In this document: one piece after another, positions 108 through 17,517 of the stretch
Layout: each line of letters starts with the position of its first letter
Position numbering within the stretch: position 1 is the stretch's first letter
From: Candidatus Zhuqueibacterota bacterium
Lineage (GTDB): Bacteria; Zhuqueibacterota; Zhuqueibacteria; Oceanimicrobiales; Oceanimicrobiaceae
Length of the DNA stretch: 40,213 bases
Direction of reading: 5' to 3'
Assembly: GCA_029262005.1 (NCBI GenBank)
Contig: JAJDAG010000039.1
Location: 1 to 40,213, forward strand
Program-made: the position numbers and the translations under genes
Notes under the pieces: model-generated
Seen by the model: only the letters and a program-made list of their open reading frames with translations
Database searches by the model: none
What the model was told of the DNA's origin: nothing

Positions 108-3100
108 TTATAATTGACTTTGATCACTCTGACCTGCGGAATGGCTAACAGCAACGATCGTCCGTGAATTATCGAGATCAGTCAAGACAAAATCAGAGGG
201 TTGTAAAGCACCACTTTGTCCAGTGTTTGAATACGTTTCTTCGGAAAAAGTCACCCCCAGCTGGTTGCTGCCAAGACCCCCTTCGGCGAGGCTAATAAAC
301 GGCCCACTTTGTTTGTCTGCAGATTCGAAATACGAAGCATTTTTAGTAATATTCCAGATAATAGCTTCATCAATTTTACCAACAAAACCATTCTGCCAGG
401 TAAATCCGCCGATAGAGAATTCGGAGGCACACCACTGTCCATTATAACAGATGCTCTCGTTCCAGGGGCTATTTTCAGAATAGGCATAAATTGAATTTTC
501 TCCTCCGCCTGGCTGCATAGTGTTTCCGGAAGAACTGCTCGTCGTAACGTCCTCACCATTGACATAGATTCTGATCCGCCCGATAGAAGGATCAGACGAA
601 CTTCTGCCAGGGCCGTTTTTATCGAAAGTAACAGCCACGTGTGTCCAGGTGTTCAATGGAATTGCCACTGAACTGTAGGCGCCGCGAGTTCCACTCGCAC
701 CTCCCTGAGAGTTGCCATTGTTATCTATTTGTGCATTAAAAGTTAGCCGCAAGGCTCCGTCGATTTTTGACAGGGTTAACGCGTATCCGCCATCATTATA
801 ACCGACATGTTTGGTAAAGATGCTGTATTCGTTATTGCTCGCGTCAGTGGGATAAACCCAGGATTCGAGTGTAGCGTTAAACTTTATTTCAGTGTATTTC
901 CAGGTGCCGTGTTTACCCTCATCTGTTGACCAATAACTGTTTCTGGTCCCCACCTGTACCGTTTGGTTGCCGTTAAGCTGGATTGCTTGCCCGAATTTAC
1001 CTGATGTAAAGGAACCTGCTGCGCCATCAAACCATTTGCCGTGCATTCTCCACGTGCCAGAGTCATTGAAGTTTCCGTTGAGTTTTAGGTATAACACACG
1101 ATCAAAGTCAAAGCCTCTCGTCGCACCTGTACCGGTTTGGTTTGACATGCGGTGAATGGTGTTAGTGCCTGTATTGCCCATCCGGCTGGAAACATGACAA
1201 CTGGCATTGCCGCATGACATGCCAGCATGCCAATCGCTATAATAATAGTGGCAATTGTTACACATAGTGTTCCAGATAATTGTGCCGGTTCCAGAATTTG
1301 GATTGGAGCGGATCATTGAGCTCACTCCTGATCCGTGCGCTTCATGACAATCGGTACAAGACAGTGCAAAGTTGGCGCCGGCAATCCGTTCTTCATGATT
1401 GTATGGTTTTCTCGACCAGAGTTGATCACCTCTTCCCCGGATGATAACCGGCCACCAATCATTCGGATCCGAAGAAGTGCGATCATCACCATTCCACCCT
1501 CTACCCTTACCGGCTGAGTACCAATCGGGAGGGGTGCCACCACCGTTCGGTGAGTTAGCAGAGCCAAGACCGTGTGGATCACTGTCAAAACCAATATTGC
1601 CGTGTGAGCCTGGTTGTACACCTGGGTCAGGCATCGGGGTATGGCAGTCATTACAGAAAGTCACATAGTCTGGTAGTTGGCTTCCGGAGAAAATATCTCC
1701 ATTTGGTGTCTTGTATTTTCCGCCATAGTCATCCATCTTTTCACCAGACTGATCACCCCAGAGCGTTGTACCCATTGCCCTGGGATTATTGGTGGGATCA
1801 CTGAAATCGGGTCTGGTCACAGGTGATTTGTTCTGATTGGCCTCCCAGTATTGGCCTGAGGCGATGTGAGGATTGTGGCAGGTTGTACATTCAAGAGTAA
1901 AGGAGTCAGAACCAATTGTGAAACTTCCTCCGAGATCATGTTTGTTTGCGGAGCTAAATCCGAAAGCCTGTTCGATGTCATCAGCTAATCCACTACCTGA
2001 TATCGCATTATTGGGGACCTTGCCTTCGGTGTGGCAGTTGAAACAGAAATTACCCAGAGATTGCGCCGAAGGTGCATTGAGAATCTTTATATTACTAGAG
2101 CCATGGCCAGTCGCATGACAGCCGAAGCTCTGGCCATCGCCCATGCAACTGAGCGGCGTGCCGTAGTCGCCACCGAGTTTGTGGGCGGCATTATTCCACA
2201 AACCTGCGTCGACAAACGGTGGGGTAATGCCATCGGTAAATGGAATATCTCCATCGCCGTCATGGCAGTTCAGGCAGAACGGTACTAGTTTGTTAGCTTC
2301 AGACTGGTCGTCCATCGGCCGGTTTGTTAATTCATAAACTGTTTGTGGTGTATCTCTGTCGAAAAGCCGCACCCGGCCCTGCATATGCTTGGTCATTTCA
2401 TGGCAAACACGGCAATCCGCCTTGTTAAATGCAACGTTTTGTAAATGGTGGCTGGTGTCGTTAAATTCAGCAGCAATAGCCCGGCGCCCACCAGGGGGAA
2501 TATTGTCACCGTTATCTTGTGGTTGATTGTGGCATTGATCACACGGCGGCGACAGGAAATTATCTTTGTGTTGGTGACAAGAAGTGCATTTCTGGCCGGG
2601 CTGGTGTTGATGATAGCCAGTGCTGTTGTTCCTGTGGTATGCCGTCTGGGTGTGACAAACTTCGCAGATGCCATCATAAGTAGAGTTACCATCAGCAAAG
2701 GAATTTGGACCGGTTTTAGATAAAAATACAACTGACTTATTGCCGCTGTTTGGAGTCGAAACTCCTTCCTTGACCAGAAAAATATTTGTACGATTTGGGT
2801 CATGTGGCTGGTGACATTTTCGGCAACCCATGCCTTTATGTTCACCGAATGTATGGCAAGATTTGCACAATGTGCTGTCATTGGCTGCCCGCAGAATATA
2901 ACCGTCGCCAGCGCCGCTGTTGGCGCCGCCCGAGTCCGCGTAGTGGGGTTGGTGGCAAGTAGTGCACTCGACGTTATTCGGATCCAACAGAGGCAGATTA
3001 AGATTTAGCGGGGGATTAAAATACAGCGAGTCCGCAAACGGATACGGGATGCCCACCGGGTGGCTGCCCTTGTTGGCTGTGGAGGTTTTATAACTACCGA

Positions 3101-3626
3101 CATCGCGTATAGAGTGACAGTCTTTACAAAGGCCATTTTGATAATTAGACTTCCTGAGGAAAGGTGAAAATGTTTGATCGTGTTGATTGTGACAAGTGGA
3201 ACAAGCGATGTTGCCGTTATGTAACCGTCGAAGCATTTCAGGGTCTGTGGGTATGTTGCCGCCATGTGTTGGATTGATGGCAGGAACATCCCAGGCATGT
3301 GATGTTCCTGAAATACCAGGTACTGCACGGTTGGCATTGCTGAAGGGCTTATTACTCGCCACTCCCGCCGGGTTATGACAACTCATGCACAGGTTTGCAT
3401 TACCCTCTACACTGGTTAACTGCGTGTCGGGGCTCTTGTGGAGAATGTGACAGGAACTGCAATCGATACCATTGCCCCAGTGCGGGCCATCTACTGTAGG
3501 GATGGCAGTGTCTTTGCCTAATCCGGAAAAGGAATGAATAGGTACTTTGTTTTGGGCTGCAAGGCTGAGCGGGTAAGTCACTGTCAGCGCTGTTACAAGA
3601 TATATGGAGAATAAGTTTGGTGTCAT
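108..3626 (-). CDS. Giant secreted multiheme c-type cytochrome with LamG-like domain
   Basis: About 1172 residues from the chosen ATG at 3626. The open frame extends 22 codons further up, but at 3626 the protein begins with a clean Sec signal (MTPNLFSIYLVTALTV, then LAAQ), with AGAGG just upstream. I count 17 CxxCH motifs plus a CX4CH (CGNASCH) and a possible CX8CH (CMGDGQSFGCH), so up to 19 hemes, spread over roughly the first 840 residues. Many motifs are followed by xPH or sit in pairs, as in doubled-CxxCH cytochromes. The C-terminal third is a LamG/concanavalin-like beta sandwich (ESWVYP, WTHVAVTF, IRIYVNGE, GKIDEAIIWN). The last about 45 residues (GVTFSE...DFVLTD) begin another beta domain that ends early. 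It is the last gene of a minus-strand run with VWA, NHL and tetraheme genes. Probable role: extracellular or surface electron transfer with glycan or surface binding. The heme count is direct; the role is inferred. Confidence 0.9.
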   Translation of the reverse strand: MTPNLFSIYLVTALTVTYPLSLAAQNKVPIHSFSGLGKDTAIPTVDGPHWGNGIDCSSCHILHKSPDTQLTSVEGNANLCMSCHNPAGVASNKPFSNANRAVPGISGTSHAWDVPAINPTHGGNIPTDPEMLRRLHNGNIACSTCHNQHDQTFSPFLRKSNYQNGLCKDCHSIRDVGSYKTSTANKGSHPVGIPYPFADSLYFNPPLNLNLPLLDPNNVECTTCHQPHYADSGGANSGAGDGYILRAANDSTLCKSCHTFGEHKGMGCRKCHQPHDPNRTNIFLVKEGVSTPNSGNKSVVFLSKTGPNSFADGNSTYDGICEVCHTQTAYHRNNSTGYHQHQPGQKCTSCHQHKDNFLSPPCDQCHNQPQDNGDNIPPGGRRAIAAEFNDTSHHLQNVAFNKADCRVCHEMTKHMQGRVRLFDRDTPQTVYELTNRPMDDQSEANKLVPFCLNCHDGDGDIPFTDGITPPFVDAGLWNNAAHKLGGDYGTPLSCMGDGQSFGCHATGHGSSNIKILNAPSAQSLGNFCFNCHTEGKVPNNAISGSGLADDIEQAFGFSSANKHDLGGSFTIGSDSFTLECTTCHNPHIASGQYWEANQNKSPVTRPDFSDPTNNPRAMGTTLWGDQSGEKMDDYGGKYKTPNGDIFSGSQLPDYVTFCNDCHTPMPDPGVQPGSHGNIGFDSDPHGLGSANSPNGGGTPPDWYSAGKGRGWNGDDRTSSDPNDWWPVIIRGRGDQLWSRKPYNHEERIAGANFALSCTDCHEAHGSGVSSMIRSNPNSGTGTIIWNTMCNNCHYYYSDWHAGMSCGNASCHVSSRMGNTGTNTIHRMSNQTGTGATRGFDFDRVLYLKLNGNFNDSGTWRMHGKWFDGAAGSFTSGKFGQAIQLNGNQTVQVGTRNSYWSTDEGKHGTWKYTEIKFNATLESWVYPTDASNNEYSIFTKHVGYNDGGYALTLSKIDGALRLTFNAQIDNNGNSQGGASGTRGAYSSVAIPLNTWTHVAVTFDKNGPGRSSSDPSIGRIRIYVNGEDVTTSSSSGNTMQPGGGENSIYAYSENSPWNESICYNGQWCASEFSIGGFTWQNGFVGKIDEAIIWNITKNASYFESADKQSGPFISLAEGGLGSNQLGVTFSEETYSNTGQSGALQPSDFVLTDLDNSRTIVAVSHSAGQSDQSQL

Positions 3627-3794
3627 AATCCTCTTTTGCTTTCCTCCACGCCGTGAATTAGTGCCCACCCGGATAGTCAATAATCCCGTCATTTCGGTAT
3701 TGTTTTAGGCCGTAATCTCACAATTTGAGCATGGAGCCCGATAAACCATTCGGGGCTGGCATACTATGGCGATTTCGGATGGACACAAATTGGT

Positions 3795-7944: not shown

Positions 7945-7960
7945 TGTGTCATATCACACA
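7945..7960. promoter_or_regulatory. Operator-like inverted repeat between divergent sigma54 promoters
   Basis: TGTGTCATATCACACA is a perfect TGTGT-N6-ACACA inverted repeat. With the following AAT it matches 16 of 18 bases of each arm of the 55-bp palindrome at 11195-11249. It sits between the minus promoter at 7891-7906 and the plus promoter at 8033-8048, so one bound dimer could activate both. Likely binder: the sigma54 response regulator encoded at 9662. A CRP/FNR-family protein would recognise a similar TGTG-N8-CACA layout and is the main alternative. Confidence 0.65.
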
Positions 7961-8032: not shown

Positions 8033-8048
8033 AGGCACAACAATTGCT
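8033..8048 (+). promoter_or_regulatory. Sigma54-type promoter for the kinase-regulator pair
   Basis: AGGCACAACAATTGCT has the GG-N10-GC layout and both conserved boxes (GGCAC and TTGCT), with the first T of the -24 box replaced by A. The predicted start is near 8059, 27 nt before the kinase ATG. The operator at 7945-7960 is about 107 bp upstream, implying autoregulation. A TATAAT at 8048-8053 could instead be a sigma70 -10 box, but no good -35 box lies 17 bp before it. Confidence 0.6.
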
Positions 8049-8085: not shown

Positions 8086-9561
8086 ATGTTTTTTCATAAG
8101 CTTCGCACACGGATGATTGCTCACATTGTTTGGATCGTGGTAATTGTTACCGCTGTGAATTCATATTTTGTATACAGTGCGCATCAGCTATCTACTCAGC
8201 GTCACTTGCAACATGATGCATTGATTGCAACCGAAATTGTGGAAAACACATTGCTGGCGGTCATGAAACGTAAACAACCAGGCACACTTGAGGAGTTGCT
8301 GCCTGAAATGACCAAAATGCACCATATCAAAACAATTCGCATTTTACGGCCGGATGGTAGGATTTCCTTTTCTTCGAGTGCCAATGAAAAGGGCCAATTC
8401 CTCAAATTAAATGATTTAGACAAATTCATTGCCAATTCTTCTCAAACACGTAGTTTTCGAGTATCAGAAGGCAGTACCACTACTTTCAGCAAGTGGCGTA
8501 AAATCACTAACCGGCAACTTTGCCATGAATGCCACGTCAAGTCGCAGAAATTCAACGGTGTTATATGTGTAGAAACATCTGAAGACATAACCCTGAGTTC
8601 TTTCAACCCGGGATATTTGCTGCCTGGGGGAATTGCCCTGGGTGTAATAATGCTCCTGTCCCTGGCAACTATAGCACTTTTTTTTCGGGCGGTGGACCGG
8701 CCGGTGCAAAAGTTAGAATCTGCCATAAGCGCAATTAAGCGCGGTGACTTTTCTATACGGTTGCCAGAGCTTGGCCACAACGAATTCGGATACCTGGGGC
8801 ACGAAATGAACACAATGGCTGAGAAGCTACAACGATCAAGAAGCCGTTTGCTCGCCAATCATAATCGGGAATTGCTGCAGGCAGAGTCACATGCAAAAAT
8901 TGGTGAAATGGCAGCAGGCCTGGCACATGAAATCAAAAACCCTATTTCTGGAATTGTTTTCGCAGTAAATTCAATCCTGCGGGATACCAACCACAGTGAC
9001 AACCGGCGGGAAATCTTCGAAGAAATTGTTAAGCAAGCAAACAAAATTGAGTATAACCTCGAAGCGTTGCTCACTTTCGCACGACAAATCAGGCTGGACC
9101 GCCAGCCCACTGATATCAATAGCATTGTTGAAAGAGTTCTGTTGTTTATTCGTCAGCAACCGGATATGAAGTTGATCAAGGCTGATTGTGATTTGGATTT
9201 GAACCTGCCTAAAATAAATGTAGATTCAAGACAAATGGAACAGGTATTGCTAAACCTGGTTATAAATGCTGTACAAGCGATGCCGAGTGGCGGACAATTG
9301 TGTTTGAAAACACTTTTTGTCAAGGAAAGCGGCAAAGTGCAGATATGGGTTCAAGATACCGGGTATGGCATCCAGCCAAAACTGAGAGATAAAGTGTTCG
9401 AACCATATTACACGACTAAAAAGAAAGGCACCGGATTGGGCCTCACCTTGAGTAAAGAAATTGTAATGCGCCACAACGGCCGCCTTTATTTTGAGTGTTT
9501 ACCTGGGAATGGCACGGTTTTTATTATTGACTTGCCGGTCAATGGCCAGGGGATATTGTAG
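8086..9561 (+). CDS. Sensor histidine kinase with periplasmic c-type heme motif
   Basis: 491 residues. TM1 at about 11-31, an extracytoplasmic sensor region at 32-177 and TM2 at about 178-200. Then a HAMP domain (RPVQKLESAISAIKRGDFS, 205-255), HisKA with the phospho-acceptor H281 in HEIKNP, and a HATPase domain with N390/N394, DTGYG (424-428) and GTGLGL (448-453). The sensor region holds one CxxCH motif, CHECH at 146-150, about 28 residues before TM2 and on the periplasmic side where c-type heme is attached. It is therefore probably a heme-based redox or gas sensor. The cognate regulator is the sigma54 activator encoded 100 nt downstream. The neighbours are cytochrome operons, so the likely output is cytochrome expression. 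The kinase domains are certain; heme attachment is inferred from the motif and topology. Confidence 0.93.
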   Translation: MFFHKLRTRMIAHIVWIVVIVTAVNSYFVYSAHQLSTQRHLQHDALIATEIVENTLLAVMKRKQPGTLEELLPEMTKMHHIKTIRILRPDGRISFSSSANEKGQFLKLNDLDKFIANSSQTRSFRVSEGSTTTFSKWRKITNRQLCHECHVKSQKFNGVICVETSEDITLSSFNPGYLLPGGIALGVIMLLSLATIALFFRAVDRPVQKLESAISAIKRGDFSIRLPELGHNEFGYLGHEMNTMAEKLQRSRSRLLANHNRELLQAESHAKIGEMAAGLAHEIKNPISGIVFAVNSILRDTNHSDNRREIFEEIVKQANKIEYNLEALLTFARQIRLDRQPTDINSIVERVLLFIRQQPDMKLIKADCDLDLNLPKINVDSRQMEQVLLNLVINAVQAMPSGGQLCLKTLFVKESGKVQIWVQDTGYGIQPKLRDKVFEPYYTTKKKGTGLGLTLSKEIVMRHNGRLYFECLPGNGTVFIIDLPVNGQGIL

Positions 9562-9661: not shown

Positions 9662-11035
9662 ATGAAAAACTACAAAATCCTGCTAGTCGAAGACGATAAA
9701 CTCATAGCATGGTCTCTTTCTCGTGATCTGAAATGCGCTGGCTGTGACGTTAATGTTTCTGTTGATGGTGAAAGCGCCCTGGATGCCTTTCGTGACTTCT
9801 GCCCTGATGTTGTTCTGCTCGATTTGAAACTACCCGGAATTAACGGTCTGAAAGTTCTGCGAACCCTGAAAAAAGAATCACAGAATTCTATCATTATTAT
9901 GATGACTGCATTCGCAACAGTTGAGACAGCAGTTCAAGCTGTCAAATTGGGAGCGACCGATTTTATTAAAAAGCCATTTTCTTATGATGAGCTAAAAATT
10001 ATCTTAAAGAGGGCGCTCGAGAGCCACCGATTAAGCCGTGAGGTAGCGGAAATGCGTCACCATCTTAAGCAAAAACACGGCATAGTCAATCTGGTTGGCG
10101 AATCCCCTAAAATACAACAAGTATATGCATTCATTAGAAAAATTTCTCAAAGCGATGCAACGACAATCCTCATTTATGGAGAAAGTGGTACCGGGAAAGA
10201 CCTGGTCGCGAAAGCGATTCACTATGAAAGCAAACGATTTCAATATCCATTTATGGCTTTGAATTGTGGCGCGTTACCCGATACACTTGTGGAGAGTGAA
10301 ATATTCGGCCATGAGAAAGGAGCATTTACAGATGCAAAAACCGCAAAGAAAGGATTATTTGAGCTCGCAGATAAAGGCACAGTGCTATTAGATGAAATTG
10401 GTGATGCTTCTCCTTCTCTTCAAGTCAAGCTCTTACGGTTTATCGAGGATAGAACTTTCAAACATATTGGCGGCACCCGGGACATCGACGTAAACGTTCG
10501 AGTTATTGCGGCGACCAATAGAGATCTCAAAGATTTAGTCAAAGAGGGTCACTTTCGCGAAGATCTCTATTATCGGTTAAAAGTAATTCCCGTCGATCTC
10601 CCGCCTTTACGAGAACGTCCATCAGACATCCTGGTCCTGACAAAGTACTTTGTTGATCATTTCAATATTGAGTTCAATAAGCATGTGACGGGCATTTCTG
10701 AGAAAGTCCTGGACATTCTGACGAATTATAATTGGCCGGGAAATGTGCGTGAATTGCGGAATGTCCTCGAACGGGTAATGATTCTGGAAAGTGAAGAAGA
10801 GATTCTACCCGAGCACCTACCGCTGGAAATTACCCTTAAGCATGAACCATCATCGTTTCTTCCAGAAAATTTTCAACTGCCCTCTACTGGAACATCGCTA
10901 TATGGCGTTGAAAAATCATTGCTTGAAAAAGTCCTTGCATACACGCAGGGCAACCAGTCAAAAGGGGCAAGATTACTACGAATATCCCGCCATACACTGC
11001 GCTATAAAATGAAAAAATATAAACTGCTGGACTAG
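9662..11035 (+). CDS. NtrC-type sigma54-dependent response regulator
   Basis: 457 residues in the classical three-domain order. The receiver domain (1-120) has acidic DD at 11-12, phospho-acceptor D54 in VVLLDLKLPG, and the conserved K in FIKKPF. The AAA+ domain (about 143-385) has Walker A GESGTGKD at 173-180, Walker B VLLDEIGD at 241-248 and arginine-finger region sequences (REDLYYRL, PLRERPSD). The sigma54 contact loop is GAFTDA at 220-225 instead of the usual GAFTGA. The C-terminus is a Fis-type helix-turn-helix (GARLLRISRHTLRYKMKKY). GGGAA precedes the ATG. It is co-transcribed with the heme-motif kinase. The three sigma54-type promoters and repeated operator in this window are its most likely targets. 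The family is certain; the target sites are inferred. Confidence 0.95.
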   Translation: MKNYKILLVEDDKLIAWSLSRDLKCAGCDVNVSVDGESALDAFRDFCPDVVLLDLKLPGINGLKVLRTLKKESQNSIIIMMTAFATVETAVQAVKLGATDFIKKPFSYDELKIILKRALESHRLSREVAEMRHHLKQKHGIVNLVGESPKIQQVYAFIRKISQSDATTILIYGESGTGKDLVAKAIHYESKRFQYPFMALNCGALPDTLVESEIFGHEKGAFTDAKTAKKGLFELADKGTVLLDEIGDASPSLQVKLLRFIEDRTFKHIGGTRDIDVNVRVIAATNRDLKDLVKEGHFREDLYYRLKVIPVDLPPLRERPSDILVLTKYFVDHFNIEFNKHVTGISEKVLDILTNYNWPGNVRELRNVLERVMILESEEEILPEHLPLEITLKHEPSSFLPENFQLPSTGTSLYGVEKSLLEKVLAYTQGNQSKGARLLRISRHTLRYKMKKYKLLD

Positions 11036-11194
11036 TTAGCGCAACCGATGTGAGGCTTTCAAAAAGGTCACCTACAATCGCCTTTTTTGAACTCAATAGT
11101 TCGATTTTGTTGCCGCGAAGGATATCTGTTGTTTAGATCGAAATCGCGTTAACTTATCTTTATTTTTCGCTGTCGGAAGCAATCACTTCCTTTT
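11036..11194. other. Intergenic region downstream of the regulator
   Basis: The gene-free stretch from 11036 to 11447 holds the hairpin at 11058-11091, the 55-bp palindrome at 11195-11249 and the sigma54-type promoter at 11377-11392, each listed separately. I see nothing else in the rest of it. Confidence 0.5.
11058..11091 (+). terminator. Probable intrinsic terminator of the two-component operon
   Basis: TTCAAAAAGG pairs with CCTTTTTTGAA (one bulged T) around a 13-base loop, 23 nt after the regulator stop codon. The six Ts are partly inside the stem, so the U-tract is formed by the stem arm. This is common for A/T-flanked terminators, which can then act in both directions. Confidence 0.5.
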
Positions 11195-11249
11195 CAGGCC
11201 AACTGTGCTATATCACACAATCATTGTGTGATATAGCACAGTTGGCCTG
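11195..11249. promoter_or_regulatory. Perfect 55-bp palindrome, probable enhancer of the NHL-cytochrome operon
   Basis: Two 27-base arms are exact reverse complements around the single base at 11222. Each arm contains the 16-mer TGTGCTATATCACACA (11204-11219, mirrored at 11225-11240), which with the adjoining AAT matches the element at 7945-7960 at 16 of 18 positions. The centre lies about 181 bp upstream of the predicted sigma54 start at about 11403, a typical enhancer distance. As RNA it would be a very long hairpin, but no T run follows it. An inverted-repeat mobile remnant is a less likely alternative. Confidence 0.7.
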
Positions 11250-11376: not shown

Positions 11377-11392
11377 TGGCATTATCGTTGCG
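11377..11392 (+). promoter_or_regulatory. Sigma54-type promoter for the NHL lipoprotein-cytochrome operon
   Basis: TGGCATTATCGTTGCG has a -24 box TGGCAT, a -12 box TTGCG and exact GG-N10-GC spacing. The predicted start near 11403 excludes the upstream start codon at 11388 and supports translation from the ATG at 11448. The palindrome at 11195-11249 would be the activator site. Confidence 0.7.
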
Positions 11393-11447: not shown

Positions 11448-12593
11448 ATGAATATTCGTAACTATTTTCATAATAATTTCAAAATTATATTAGGTGTCAC
11501 CGTTGTTTTGTTGAGCCTGGTCGCCTGTGGTGGCACTCGCCAAGGCGCCATCAATAGTGACAAGCAAGATCTAATTTGGCCTCTCCCGCCAGAACCACCC
11601 AGAATTCGGTATGAGAAAAGTGTTCACTCCGAATTAGATGTCGGCAGAGAGCGGTCGCTGTCCAGACGCATTTATGAAATGATTTTTGGCCGGGCGCCTC
11701 TTCGTGCACTAAAAAAACCGACAGCTGTTCATACCGATAACTCCGGGCGCGTGCTTGTGGCGGACACAGGTTGGCGCAAAGTCCTGGTTTTTGATTTCGA
11801 CAATAAAAGCCTGGATGTCCTTGGCAAATCGGGCTCAGGCCGCTTGCTAAATCCGCTGGGTGTAACCACGGACCCAACCGGCAGAATTTACGTGACCGAT
11901 GCTGGTGGCAGCCGGGTGATGATTTATGATTCCGAAGGCAAATATTTATTTGCATTTGGCGGTAAAGAGGAATTTGTACGGCCTTCGGGAATAGCTGTCA
12001 ACCTGGAGGGAAAAAAGATCTATGTAGTAGATACCTGGGCTCACCAGATAAAGGTGTTCGACTGCAATTCAAGAAAACATCTTTTTAGCATCGGAAAAAA
12101 AGGCAAAAAAACCAATGAGTTAAATGAGGGTGTATTAGACCAGGCCTGGAACAGAGGAAGCGAAGAGGGTGAATTTCGTTTCCCGACACAAATCGCCATT
12201 GGCCCCGATGGAAAACTCTACATTGTCGATACGCTTAACTTCCGTGTACAAATTTTTTCCGGTACAGGTGAGTTTATTAACTCATTCGGCGAAGTTGGAA
12301 ATTTTCCGGGTACATTTTACCGACCAAAGGGAATTGCACTTGACAGCGATGGCAACATTTATGTTTCTGATGCAGCATTCAGCAACATCCAAATATTTAC
12401 TCCGGATGGTAAGCTTCTTCTTCATTTCGGCTCTTTTGGCTCCGGCCTTGCAGACTTGCGATTGCCTGCCGGCCTATATATCAATCCACAGGACCAGATG
12501 TTTGTTGTTGATCAATTTAACAACAGGATTAAGGTCTATCAGTACCTGGGCGGCAAGCCCGGCGAACTTTTAACAGAAAAAGAAAGAAGGTGA
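11448..12593 (+). CDS. NHL-repeat beta-propeller lipoprotein of the cytochrome conduit
   Basis: 381 residues from the ATG at 11448. An in-frame start at 11388 falls inside the promoter, and the ATG at 11418 has no ribosome site. AAAGG lies 11 nt before 11448. The N-terminus is a lipoprotein signal with lipobox LVAC, giving lipidated Cys27. The phrase LIWPLPPEPPRIRYEKS follows; such a proline-rich linker is typical of NHL lipoproteins near multiheme cytochrome genes. About six NHL blades cover residues 85-370 (VLVADTGWRKVLVFDFD, IYVTDAGGSRVMIYDSEGK, LYIVDTLNFRVQIFS, IYVSDAAFSNIQIFTPDGK, FVVDQFNNRIKVYQ). It is the first gene of the plus-strand operon, 4 nt before the next cytochrome. Likely role: a lipid-anchored assembly or contact factor for the outer-membrane electron conduit. 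The fold is clear, the role inferred. Confidence 0.9.
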   Translation: MNIRNYFHNNFKIILGVTVVLLSLVACGGTRQGAINSDKQDLIWPLPPEPPRIRYEKSVHSELDVGRERSLSRRIYEMIFGRAPLRALKKPTAVHTDNSGRVLVADTGWRKVLVFDFDNKSLDVLGKSGSGRLLNPLGVTTDPTGRIYVTDAGGSRVMIYDSEGKYLFAFGGKEEFVRPSGIAVNLEGKKIYVVDTWAHQIKVFDCNSRKHLFSIGKKGKKTNELNEGVLDQAWNRGSEEGEFRFPTQIAIGPDGKLYIVDTLNFRVQIFSGTGEFINSFGEVGNFPGTFYRPKGIALDSDGNIYVSDAAFSNIQIFTPDGKLLLHFGSFGSGLADLRLPAGLYINPQDQMFVVDQFNNRIKVYQYLGGKPGELLTEKERR

Positions 12594-12597
12594 TCAC

Positions 12598-13305
12598 ATG
12601 ATGAAATGGACATTTGTCGTTTGTACTTTAGTACTCATGGTATGCCTGGCAGGAGTATCGGATACCTATGCCCAATTTGGTAATAAGGTATCAGATACGC
12701 CGCACAACCTGCAAAAGGCGACAACTTCCGGCATGACCTTAGCCGATTATGGTGAAATCTGTGTATATTGCCATACACCCCACAACAACAACATCAACAT
12801 AGAAGCACCGTTGTGGAACCGCGATGAACCAACCGGGCCGTATAATATGTACAACAGCCCAACCCTCGATATGACCATCGCGAATACGGCAGAGAATGTG
12901 TCGCTGGCCTGCTTATCGTGCCACGACAACACGATAGCGCTTGATCAGATAATAAACCGACCAAGCAGCCAACTTGGCACCAATCCGTCGGGACAAACCA
13001 TTGAGACCTGTGCGACTACTTGCCACGTTGGCGCCAATCCGGTTGGCGGCATCAATTTCCAAGGCACTAATCTCGGTACGGACCTGCAAAATGATCATCC
13101 GATTTCGATCGTTTACGATCCAAGCAAAGACCCCAATTTCCTTCCAGCCTCAAATGGAAAAGTTGGAAATTTACCATTGTACGGATCAAACGCAGATCGT
13201 GTGGAGTGTGCTTCCTGCCACAATCCGCATGACAACTCGAACCGACCGTTTTTGCGGATGTCGAATGCAAACAGTGCTTTGTGTCTCACGTGTCATGATA
13301 TATAG
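12598..13305 (+). CDS. Periplasmic pentaheme-type cytochrome c
   Basis: 235 residues with a Sec signal (to about residue 26, DTYAQ). Motifs in order are CVYCH (followed by TPHNN), CLSCH, CATTCH (a CX3CH variant), CASCH (followed by NPHD) and CLTCH three residues from the C-terminus. That gives four canonical sites plus one atypical site. The pairs CxxCHxPH and CLxCHD are characteristic of doubled-CxxCH cytochromes. AAGAAGG lies 7 nt before the ATG at 12598; the adjacent ATG at 12601 is an alternative. It is translationally close to the NHL lipoprotein (4-nt gap) and followed by a strong terminator at 13394. It probably carries electrons across the periplasm to the porin-cytochrome complex. 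Heme binding at CX3CH needs experimental confirmation. Confidence 0.92.
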   Translation: MMKWTFVVCTLVLMVCLAGVSDTYAQFGNKVSDTPHNLQKATTSGMTLADYGEICVYCHTPHNNNINIEAPLWNRDEPTGPYNMYNSPTLDMTIANTAENVSLACLSCHDNTIALDQIINRPSSQLGTNPSGQTIETCATTCHVGANPVGGINFQGTNLGTDLQNDHPISIVYDPSKDPNFLPASNGKVGNLPLYGSNADRVECASCHNPHDNSNRPFLRMSNANSALCLTCHDI

Positions 13306-13444: not shown

Positions 13445-14440
13445 GTGTTGAAATTCATCAAATATTTTCGAATCGTCCTTATATTGGCATTACCAACAGG
13501 GTTGGTAATGGCTTCAGAAGATGCGGTTGCCGGTAACGGCAATGAAGTAGCTGCTACGGTAAACGGCGTTGAAATCGTTGTACATTCATTAAAGGCAGAG
13601 ATCAACAGAAGACTGCCATATTCAACTTATCACTCCCGGGTCACGCCTGAAAAAATGCAACAAATACGCAGTCAGAGTTTACAAAAACTCATTGAAGATG
13701 AGCTGTTTTTCCAGGAAGCAGAACGACACAAGCTGGATGTTAATCTCATTGAAGTAAATCAGCGAATCGATATGATGAAAAACGGCCACGCAACAGAAGA
13801 GGAATTTCAAAAAGCATTAGCCAAAGCCGGCCTGAATGCACTTTCGTTGATGGCGCGGGTAAAACGGCTACTGTTGATTCAAAAAATTCAGCAAGTACAA
13901 ATTCTTGAAACAGTAACCGTAACGGATGAAACTCTCAGAGAGTATTTTCAGAAGAACATGAATAAGTTTATTATGCCTGAAAGATTTCAGACCCGGCATA
14001 TTCTCATTTCTGTGTTTCCGGGGGCAATGGCAGCCGGTTGGGAAGAAGGCCTGAGTAAAGCGGAACAGACGTGCAAACGTATCGCTGGCGGAACAGGTTT
14101 TGCCATGTTAGCCAGGGAATTATCAGCAGACTCAACCAGCCGCGAAAATGGTGGCGATATAGGCTGGATTCACAAAGGTCAGTTGCTTCCCCAATTGGAG
14201 GAGGCTTTACATTCGATGCGGATAGGTGAAATCAGCAAACCGGTTCGCTCAATTTATGGTTTCCATATTCTCAAGTTGGAAGGCAAGCAAAAAGAAAAAC
14301 AACTCACATTCGATGAAATAAATCAGGCAGAACTAAAAAAAAGGATCACCAAACAAAAAATAGAAAAACGAAGACAGGAGTTTCTTGGACAACTAAAATC
14401 CCAGGCACAAATTCGTATTTTGAAACTTCAGGGGGTGTGA
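13445..14440 (+). CDS. Periplasmic parvulin-type peptidyl-prolyl isomerase (PpiC/SurA-like)
   Basis: 331 residues starting at GTG 13445 (TTG 13448 is an alternative; AGG lies about 10 nt before). The N-terminus is an export signal (LILALPTGLVMASE). A SurA-N-like helical chaperone region covers about 35-170, including VAATVNGVEI and RSQSLQKLIEDELFFQEA. A PpiC rotamase domain lies at about 178-275 (RHILISVFPG, FAMLARELSADSTS, GGDIGWIHKGQLLP, PVRSIYGFHILKLEG). Enzymes of this type fold outer-membrane and periplasmic proteins. Parvulins recur inside multiheme cytochrome and porin clusters, and here the gene lies between two cytochrome genes and ahead of the beta-barrel, so its clients are probably these. 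A 10-bp perfect hairpin with a 3-base loop lies in the signal-peptide codons (13488-13510). Confidence 0.9.
   Translation: MLKFIKYFRIVLILALPTGLVMASEDAVAGNGNEVAATVNGVEIVVHSLKAEINRRLPYSTYHSRVTPEKMQQIRSQSLQKLIEDELFFQEAERHKLDVNLIEVNQRIDMMKNGHATEEEFQKALAKAGLNALSLMARVKRLLLIQKIQQVQILETVTVTDETLREYFQKNMNKFIMPERFQTRHILISVFPGAMAAGWEEGLSKAEQTCKRIAGGTGFAMLARELSADSTSRENGGDIGWIHKGQLLPQLEEALHSMRIGEISKPVRSIYGFHILKLEGKQKEKQLTFDEINQAELKKRITKQKIEKRRQEFLGQLKSQAQIRILKLQGV
13488..13510 (+). other. Perfect hairpin inside the PPIase signal-peptide codons
   Basis: CATTACCAAC and GTTGGTAATG are exact complements with the loop AGG. It encodes part of LALPTGLVMA. A stem this tight 40 nt into the coding region could slow ribosomes at the export signal or reflect chance. 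Confidence 0.4.
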
Positions 14441-14686: not shown

Positions 14687-15421
14687 ATGAGTTTGAACAG
14701 GAAAAAGTTGCTCACATGCCAAAAATCGGCAACACAAATGTTTTTAATATTATTCGCAGGCGCACTGATGTTTGGCTGCAGCAGGACTGCACGCCACCGG
14801 GTATTGACCTTTTTTTTTGACGAAGTGCCTTCGATGGATAGCGCTAAGTATTCAGTCCGGGCCGACTCTTTGGCTATACCTGCCCTAACGGCAGAAATCC
14901 ATTCGGACAGTTTGCTAGTTGCTAACAGCACATGGTTTTTTCATCCACTTCTTAATAAAAAAGAGTGTATGTCCTGTCATGATATTACCGCATCATTTCG
15001 ACTCTTCCAGGAACCGGAAAACCTTTGCGTGAATTGCCATAATCAGGCAAAAGCGGCTGTCGTTCATGCACCGGTGGAAGAAGGTGCTTGTGGGGAATGT
15101 CATGCTCCACATGGGTCAAAAAACGCACACATGTTGATAGAAACAGGAGCTGAGCTATGCTTTCAATGCCATGACGATGAAGAGGTTAAGCCAGTTGCAG
15201 CTTCTTCCCTCCACACACCGGTGGCAAGTGGAGATTGCATTGAATGCCACAACCCGCATGGTTCGGAGAACCCACAAATGTTGCTGGCTGTAGCAGATGA
15301 ACTTTGCTTTAAGTGCCACAATAAGGAAAAAATTAAAACCTCTGAGACACATACAGATATTGGGGAAACCAAATGCGATGAGTGTCACAATCCTCACACG
15401 GGGATTATTAGGGTTTTCTGA
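14687..15421 (+). CDS. Seven-heme lipoprotein cytochrome c, doubled-CxxCH type
   Basis: 244 residues. A lipoprotein signal ends in ALMFGC, giving a lipidated Cys near residue 31. After a heme-free linker of about 65 residues come seven CxxCH motifs: CMSCH, CVNCH, CGECH, CFQCH, CIECH, CFKCH and CDECH. Those three with xPHG or NPHT after the motif alternate with ELCFxCH, the repeat pattern of doubled-CxxCH domains. AAGAAG precedes the ATG. It lies between the PPIase and the beta-barrel genes. Lipid anchoring plus multiple hemes next to a barrel is the arrangement of the periplasmic or outer cytochrome in porin-cytochrome conduits. Whether it faces the periplasm or the outside cannot be told from sequence. 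The 246-nt gap before it shows no convincing promoter. Confidence 0.92.
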   Translation: MSLNRKKLLTCQKSATQMFLILFAGALMFGCSRTARHRVLTFFFDEVPSMDSAKYSVRADSLAIPALTAEIHSDSLLVANSTWFFHPLLNKKECMSCHDITASFRLFQEPENLCVNCHNQAKAAVVHAPVEEGACGECHAPHGSKNAHMLIETGAELCFQCHDDEEVKPVAASSLHTPVASGDCIECHNPHGSENPQMLLAVADELCFKCHNKEKIKTSETHTDIGETKCDECHNPHTGIIRVF

Positions 15422-15549: not shown

Positions 15550-17517
15550 ATGACCGGACCGGCTGTAAAATATAATTGTCTGGTTTTGTTGATTCTGGTT
15601 GCTTTGTTGTCAATATATGACACTTTGCCAGCGCAGGAAGTCGGACTGTTTCGTCTTAGAAGGTGGGGTGGGTCGTTGCGATTTAGGTGGCAAACAGAAA
15701 ATCGATTCGCGCCCGATCTAACGCGTGAAAAGACCTATAACGGTGCGTTCAATCTCCACAATAATGGCTATATCATTAATCCGAATTTATTATACTTCCA
15801 ATGGAGCGGTGATGTCGGTTTATACCTCACACGATTTGTTACACAGGAAATTAATAGAAATACAAAAGGGCGATTGTTAAGCCAAAATTTCCTGGCTTCG
15901 TTATTCAAATCGGGCAAGTATCCACTGACATTTCTCTGGGATCGTAATATCAATGTCATCGATATGGAACAAGGCGGACGCAACAACTATGATATCAACA
16001 ATCTCCAGGTCGTTGTCGAAACCCGTGACTGGTCAACGCCATCTCGGTTGCAAATTGCGTCGCGGGATTTGTGGGAAGTTTGGGATCGGGCAGGCTTCAG
16101 AACAGAACGCAATCAACTGCGGCGCACAATTAATTATACCGGCCGCCGTGGTGCAGATGAGTACAACCTTGATCTCGATTATGATTTTCTGAATATTAAA
16201 GATCGGATTCGCGCGAAATGGAGTTATTCCAAACACACTGCCAATGTTCGCTATATCCGCCCGTTTGGAAAAGACGACCTGAATCAATTTAACAGCAGAC
16301 TTAGCCTGTTTATCCGCAATGGATTAAGCGATTACAAAAATGCCGGCATTAACAATTCAATTCAACTGCATCACAAGTATCATCTTTCTAGCAGGTACCA
16401 CCACTCATTGATGATTACCCGAACTTTGGGCAGTACCTTTATGCAAAACACTGCCTATGCCTCGGCGAGTCATCGACTCTTTTCCAGTTTAAATACCAGC
16501 CTGAGCACTGGCGGCTCCTACAGCAATTTGCGCGGAGGCAACACGTACACCTACTCGCTAAGCAGTAGCGTCAATTACAATAAAAAAATACCGCTTTCAG
16601 GCCGTTTGCAACTCGGCTTCACCCGCGGTTACTCAATCAACAATATCGAAACCAATAACACCGAGCATATAATTGTTCATGAACGACAGGCCTTTGTTGG
16701 CGGTTTCCATGTTATGTTGAATGAACGGGATATTATTACGTCATCAATAATAGTATTTGATGAACAAGGCAAGATGATCTTCGAAGAAGGTGAGAACAAA
16801 GATTACATTTTGACCGTGGTTGGCGATCGAGTGGAACTTTTTCGCACTCCCTTTGGCAGAATAGCGGAAAACGCCGTTATTTTGGTTGACTACAGATTCA
16901 ACACCCTGCCTACCATGCGCTACAAAACCAATTCACAAGTGATCTCTGCCGGTGTCAGTTTTGGCTGGTTGTCGCTGACCTACAATATTAATCGTCATAT
17001 TCAAGATCTTGTGAAAGGAGATCCCGCCGGCATCAATAAGTTGCAGGACATGCAAGCAAAGGCAGCACTGGCCAGGATAACCTTGCGAAGAGACAATGCC
17101 GGCATGTCTGTTTATGCCAGGCACAAGTTGTACCATTCACGAAACCTGGATTTCAAATCGATAGATACTCAATTCTCATTTTTTGTAAAGCCGTTTTACA
17201 GCCTTTCAATTTCAAATAAACTATCGTATTCATTACTTGATCACCAACTTGAGCTTCTGAAGGTAAGTGTTTACTCTCTACGATCGGAACTCGGGTGGCG
17301 TCCTTCACGCTCTTTTATGTTGCGCGGATATGGCAAATACCGTCTCCGAAAAGAAAGTGCAAAAACGGATGAACAAAATATCGAATACGGGGCCAGCCTG
17401 CAACGTTACTGGCGAGTACTGACGTTGCAATTACGATATGAAAAACGGATTTGGGATTTTTTTTTCCGAACCATCAAAGAGCAGCGATTTACCCTTGAAG
17501 TTGTGCGAGCTTTCTAA
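15550..17517 (+). CDS. Outer-membrane beta-barrel, putative porin of the electron conduit
   Basis: 655 residues with a signal peptide (LVLLILVALLSIYDTLPAQE). The mature protein has no hydrophobic helices but dense alternating amphipathic strands rich in Y, R, S and N (for example YNLDLDYDFLNIKDRIRAKW, SYSNLRGGNTYTYSLSSSV, SLSISNKLSYSLLDHQLE). It ends in FTLEVVRAF, a terminal aromatic as in many outer-membrane barrels. Length and strand density would allow a barrel of 20 or more strands. No NYPNPFNP tail or CxxCH is present. Its position at the end of the lipoprotein, cytochrome and PPIase series points to the porin part of a porin-cytochrome conduit. Barrel topology is inferred from composition; no named porin family was recognised. 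Confidence 0.8.
   Translation: MTGPAVKYNCLVLLILVALLSIYDTLPAQEVGLFRLRRWGGSLRFRWQTENRFAPDLTREKTYNGAFNLHNNGYIINPNLLYFQWSGDVGLYLTRFVTQEINRNTKGRLLSQNFLASLFKSGKYPLTFLWDRNINVIDMEQGGRNNYDINNLQVVVETRDWSTPSRLQIASRDLWEVWDRAGFRTERNQLRRTINYTGRRGADEYNLDLDYDFLNIKDRIRAKWSYSKHTANVRYIRPFGKDDLNQFNSRLSLFIRNGLSDYKNAGINNSIQLHHKYHLSSRYHHSLMITRTLGSTFMQNTAYASASHRLFSSLNTSLSTGGSYSNLRGGNTYTYSLSSSVNYNKKIPLSGRLQLGFTRGYSINNIETNNTEHIIVHERQAFVGGFHVMLNERDIITSSIIVFDEQGKMIFEEGENKDYILTVVGDRVELFRTPFGRIAENAVILVDYRFNTLPTMRYKTNSQVISAGVSFGWLSLTYNINRHIQDLVKGDPAGINKLQDMQAKAALARITLRRDNAGMSVYARHKLYHSRNLDFKSIDTQFSFFVKPFYSLSISNKLSYSLLDHQLELLKVSVYSLRSELGWRPSRSFMLRGYGKYRLRKESAKTDEQNIEYGASLQRYWRVLTLQLRYEKRIWDFFFRTIKEQRFTLEVVRAF

Follow-up and report, generated by a model that had tools for sequence, protein, structure and literature searches.

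We propose with good confidence that the perfect 55-bp palindrome at 11195–11249 of the window (the whole 40,213-nucleotide stretch of DNA analysed here) is a UAS through which the NtrC-family response regulator encoded at 9662–11035 would activate the neighbouring operon, and that the exact symmetry of this element most likely arose by template switching. The lineage is known here only from genome sequence, and the analysis offers it a testable control circuit for an operon that encodes an OmcE-like cytochrome, consisting of a sensor, a regulator, an operator and a promoter. In Geobacter, proteins of this type form extracellular conductive filaments.

Candidate operator sites within the palindrome

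Direct reading of 11195–11249, a feature assigned to no strand, bore out the earlier description of a 55-bp palindrome with 27-base arms: it reads CAGGCCAACTGTGCTATATCACACAAT-C-ATTGTGTGATATAGCACAGTTGGCCTG, with 100% complementarity of the arms across 27 nt and a 1-nt centre. Across 440,213 bases sampled from this genome, a census of perfect palindromes whose arms reach 12 nt or more, with no more than 8 nt between them, gave only one other, and its arms are 14 nt long. The palindrome contains two 16-bp imperfect dyads that fit TGTGNNATATNNCACA, namely the candidate left operator site TGTGCTATATCACACA at 11204–11219 and the candidate right site TGTGTGATATAGCACA at 11225–11240, whose centres are 21 bp apart. 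A third candidate, TGTGTCATATCACACA, is found at 7945–7960 upstream of the histidine kinase gene, and this independent copy agrees with the proposal of the sequence-only reading that the palindrome is made of two copies of an operator. The kinase and regulator genes sit between this single site and the palindrome pair. Exact matches to TGTGNNATATNNCACA in the 5.77-Mb genome number three, all at this locus, and matches with one mismatch occur at 15 further places, as against 5 for a control pattern read backwards. Related genomes also have exact single sites elsewhere; as most of these fall within unrelated coding regions, they were set aside.

A perfect palindrome in a draft genome of 205 contigs might of course be an assembly artefact or a mobile repeat, the more so as palindromes of such length are otherwise missing from the 440-kb sample. 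However, a search of the genome with the 18-base half TGTGCTATATCACACAAT, allowing up to 3 mismatches, returned 7 matches: the two arms and the copy at 7945 account for three, and the other four, each with 3 mismatches, are scattered; the half is thus no dispersed repeat, and no further copy of the palindrome was found. The phage and plasmid collections gave no match to the palindrome, and a scan of viral contigs for its arm found nothing. The exact 18-mer is also present in one Clostridia contig (L008), a rate of one match per 257 Gb that is at chance level. The lack of further genomic copies and of phage or plasmid matches speaks against a mobile repeat, and an artefact would also have to account for both sites sitting at the site positions of the orthologs with the same 21-bp spacing. 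The chance that either explanation holds is close to negligible. The earlier reading had held that the same palindrome at many unrelated genomic sites would point away from an operator; the search for such copies was negative.

The regulator, its promoter and the neighbouring operon

The protein encoded at 9662–11035 (plus strand), the proposed binder of the sites, has the receiver, sigma54-activating AAA+ and Fis-type HTH domains of the NtrC family (PF00072, PF00158, PF02954), and it matches the structures of NtrC1, ZraR and NtrX. Its sigma54-contact loop reads GAFTDA, one residue from the canonical GAFTGA, and is invariant in nine aligned regulators. The gene before it (8086–9561, plus strand) encodes a histidine kinase with HAMP, HisKA and HATPase domains, the sensor region of which contains CHECH, a haem c motif of the CxxCH type. 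Since the CxxCH motif is invariant across six aligned orthologs, the kinase is likely to be a c-type haem sensor.

Within the class, orthologs of the regulator with 58–69% identity occur in six further genomes (G003, G021, G059, G002, G012 and G024), and the gene order of the locus is largely preserved among them; the operon version of G002 is divergent and rearranged. Each of the seven genomes found to have the regulator carries a site pair in the promoter that follows its gene. The two centres are 21 bp apart in six of them and 20 bp apart in G003, which has a poor left site, a spacing that agrees with the helical phasing of more than one dimer site. Summed over the genomes, the mismatches come to 11 at the 21-bp spacing and to 33 at the next best one, and in each of six genomes none of 500 shuffles was as good at 21 bp. 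The kinase gene is preceded by a site pair in both G012 and G024, and by a single site in some other genomes. When 63 class genomes were searched for pairs with no more than one mismatch, every such pair sat at the kinase–regulator–operon locus. Among 82 genomes of the phylum, exact pairs occur at the locus in G000, G021 and G059, while G033 and G058 have one before another gene. In the last two genomes the operon is present, in G033 together with the site pair, yet a search for orthologs of the regulator and the kinase found none. The contigs with their NHL and cytochrome genes (G033:C402, L131; G058:C32, L129) end at the expected place of the regulator gene, the former 50 bp beyond the site pair and the latter close to where the operon begins; the missing genes may therefore reflect a gap in the assembly.

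The target operon is preceded by a sigma54-like −24/−12 box, TGGCATTATCGTTGC, at 11377–11391 (plus strand), the position of which is conserved in seven genomes. The 181 bp that the sequence-only reading had placed between palindrome and sigma54 start could be reproduced by measuring from the centre of the palindrome (11222) to a predicted start that lies about 12 bp past the −12 element of this box. The right site is centred 144.5 bp before the −24 box, and this distance ranges from 137.5 to 159.5 bp across the seven genomes, which falls within the roughly 100–200 bp typical of enhancer sites upstream of −24/−12 promoters (PMC7264223). A possible second box, AGGCACAACAATTGC, with one mismatch, lies before the kinase gene at 8033–8047 (plus strand), and similar boxes are found in G003, G012, G024 and G002. 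Because single matches to the sigma54 box are no commoner than chance in the window (53 observed at one mismatch, 51.6 expected), it is only their conserved position that speaks for these boxes. A weak inverted repeat, TTCAAAAAGG...CCTTTTTTGAA, was also seen at 11058–11091, past the regulator gene; it is a possible terminator and is absent from the output of the terminator scan.

With pairs in seven of seven regulator genomes, 137–160 bp upstream of a sigma54-like box, the site pair looks like an enhancer bound by the adjacent NtrC-type regulator. The idea of two operators belonging to the adjacent sigma54 activator thus gained support from the pairs, from their near-constant distance to the box and from the sites before the kinase gene. 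The sites flank both the regulator's own operon and the neighbouring one, and the pairs go with the regulator orthologs. At a strict threshold, a site pair was present at none of 23 other NtrC-family loci and at 3 of 9 focal loci, and at a laxer threshold at 3 of 23 as against 7 of 9; the recognition helix of the control regulators is mostly SRSTLREK. In one genome, G035, two paralogs carry the recognition helix SRDxLRYK in place of the SRHxLRYK of the orthologs, and they are followed by pairs with the altered half-sites TGGG...CCCA at a spacing of 23 bp. This covariation of helix and half-site, seen in two paralogs of a single genome, and the co-occurrence of gene and sites are correlative evidence for the adjacent regulator as the binder. 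A comparable architecture with another site was noted in G059 (L101, G059:C178), where a different NtrC-family regulator gene is followed at 1501–1537 by a 21-bp-spaced pair of TGTAGAATATTCTACA; a sigma54-like box comes next, and then a gene resembling those for outer-membrane efflux proteins.

The ends of the sites, TGTG...CACA, resemble those of a CRP site, and a CRP/FNR-family regulator recognizing a TGTGA-N6-TCACA-like sequence could in principle take the place of the adjacent NtrC-type regulator. Nevertheless, the orthologous sites drift toward TGCGC-N6-GCGCA, unlike CRP sites. A global regulator has many sites across a genome, whereas three exact matches were found in 5.77 Mb, all at one locus, and the pairs are placed at the distance of a sigma54 enhancer. 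We consider binding by a CRP/FNR-family protein quite improbable.

The operon itself, on the plus strand, begins with an NHL-repeat propeller that is a probable lipoprotein (11448–12593), followed by an OmcE-like multihaem cytochrome c (12598–13305), a PpiC/SurA-like peptidyl-prolyl isomerase (13445–14440), a second multihaem cytochrome c with doubled CxxCH repeats (14687–15421) and a 655-aa protein (15550–17517). The last of these gave no family match and is a probable outer-membrane barrel, as judged by its sequence and neighbourhood only. Almost the whole of the first cytochrome matches PDB 7tfs (E=3e-28), which we take to be the Geobacter OmcE filament; four CxxCH motifs all align with 7tfs_A, and there is one extra CxxxCH. 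OmcE is a tetrahaem filament cytochrome (PMC12307469). Going by the sequences, the regulator probably turns on an operon with a nanowire-type cytochrome. Elsewhere in the window, the minus strand carries a divergent cluster of cytochrome genes, one of which (108–3692) encodes a 1194-aa protein rich in CxxCH motifs; its C-terminal region looks LamG-like by eye.

Origin of the mirror symmetry

The sequence-only reading had seen in the palindrome two operators locked face to face, and this is the part of it that found no support. When the orthologous promoters were compared, as that reading had proposed, both sites were found to be kept, but the exact mirror arms are found in this genome only. 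Over 27 positions, the window pair matches its own mirror at all 27 and the orthologous pairs at 8–17. Among the seven non-window pairs, tandem similarity is above mirror similarity in four, equal to it in one and below it in two. As the orthologous pairs lack mirror symmetry and in many cases look more tandem-like, the inverted perfection would be derived in this genome and not a conserved design. The symmetry also reaches flank bases outside the conserved positions. Its chance is about 2e-9 under a simple model that assumes independent positions and serves as a guide only, and together with the unconserved flanks it suggests a template switch. In quasi-palindrome template switching, an imperfect inverted repeat becomes perfect in one event (PMC7202029, PMC8794818). 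The perfect inverted repeat seen here would be the product of such a mutation. The symmetry is probably the private trace of a template-switch mutation in this lineage.

Two other accounts of the palindrome have to be weighed. The mirror arrangement might itself have been selected, for instance if face-to-face dimers bind with higher affinity or assemble in a geometry of their own, and a near-perfect mirror pair, AAACTGCGCCATTTGACACA-tttttc-TGTGTGAAATGGCGCAGTTT, common to G033 and G058 and placed before another gene, would fit such selection. This pair may however belong to a different regulator, and at the promoter studied here the orthologous pairs are unmirrored, with the flank bases of the window's symmetry lacking conservation; selection for symmetry is therefore unlikely at this promoter, while the pair of G033 and G058 hints that mirroring may sometimes be selected. 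That pair (L132, 5726–5763, G033:C374; L130, G058:C592) is identical in the two species and lies about 55 bp upstream of a gene for a Rieske-type ferredoxin, which is followed by an acyl-CoA dehydrogenase gene; no sigma54-like box was seen near it. The palindrome could also act as RNA, forming a hairpin between the regulator gene and the operon at which transcription is terminated or attenuated, and its RNA is indeed predicted to fold into a 26-bp stem of −47 kcal/mol (z −10.3). For all the strength of this predicted fold, neither a terminator nor a known RNA was found: the terminator scan gave no terminator-like site with a T run, and the Rfam search had no match. The palindrome moreover lies upstream of the predicted sigma54 start, and the orthologous pairs keep the sites without the symmetry and so without the hairpin. 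An RNA role has a very slim chance of being right. We return to the template-switch origin, a process that has likely left its trace, in the form of the perfect symmetry, within a working enhancer.

A proposed circuit and its relation to known systems

In the circuit that we infer, the haem-bearing kinase would phosphorylate the regulator upon a change of redox state or the binding of a ligand. One regulator dimer would bind each 16-bp imperfect dyad, and as the dyads are 21 bp, or two helical turns, apart, the two dimers would be placed on the same face of the DNA. From what is known of other activators, it is plausible that two dimers bound in this way favour oligomerisation of the activator, as the sequence-only reading had suggested. 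The bound dimers would assemble into an AAA+ ring and, through DNA looping, activate sigma54-RNA polymerase at 11377, from where the NHL, OmcE-like cytochrome, PpiC, cytochrome and barrel genes would be transcribed. Through the site at 7945–7960 the regulator may act on its own kinase–regulator operon. The site pair, at first quasi-palindromic, would have been made perfect by template switching in this lineage, and the symmetry would not be a conserved functional feature. A search code for the regulon in other genomes is provided by the site pair together with its spacing and with the apparent covariation of helix and half-site.

Enhancer pairs of NtrC-family activators are already known (compare PMC4894688 and PMC11077940). 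Judged from open papers, what appears to be new is the sequence of the present site and the way it is linked with an OmcE-like operon and a kinase bearing a haem motif. A much bolder claim, which we hold to be doubtful, is that a haem-sensing kinase and an NtrC-type regulator are dedicated to an OmcE-type nanowire operon by way of an undescribed paired operator that can be exactly mirrored with an assembly geometry of its own.

The closest parallels are the enhancers of GcsR and DctD. GcsR of Pseudomonas aeruginosa has three 18-bp tandem sites (PMC4894688), and the tandem DctD sites of Rhizobium are cited in PMC11077940. Like these, the present enhancer has several dyads of 16–18 bp, each for one dimer, upstream of a sigma54 promoter and with the activator gene nearby, as is often the case. 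Unlike them, it has the site sequence TGYGYNAWATNRCRCA, and it consists of two exact mirror-image sites where GcsR has three sites. A second parallel is offered by GSU2506 and GSU2507 of Geobacter sulfurreducens, which presumably adjoin omcST. They are listed together with GSU2505 as a sigma54-dependent regulator and a histidine kinase (PMC10599522). The likeness is one of description: the annotation of GSU2506 gives a PAS domain, where the regulator at 9662–11035 has a receiver domain, and the cytochrome at 12598–13305 resembles OmcE and not OmcS.
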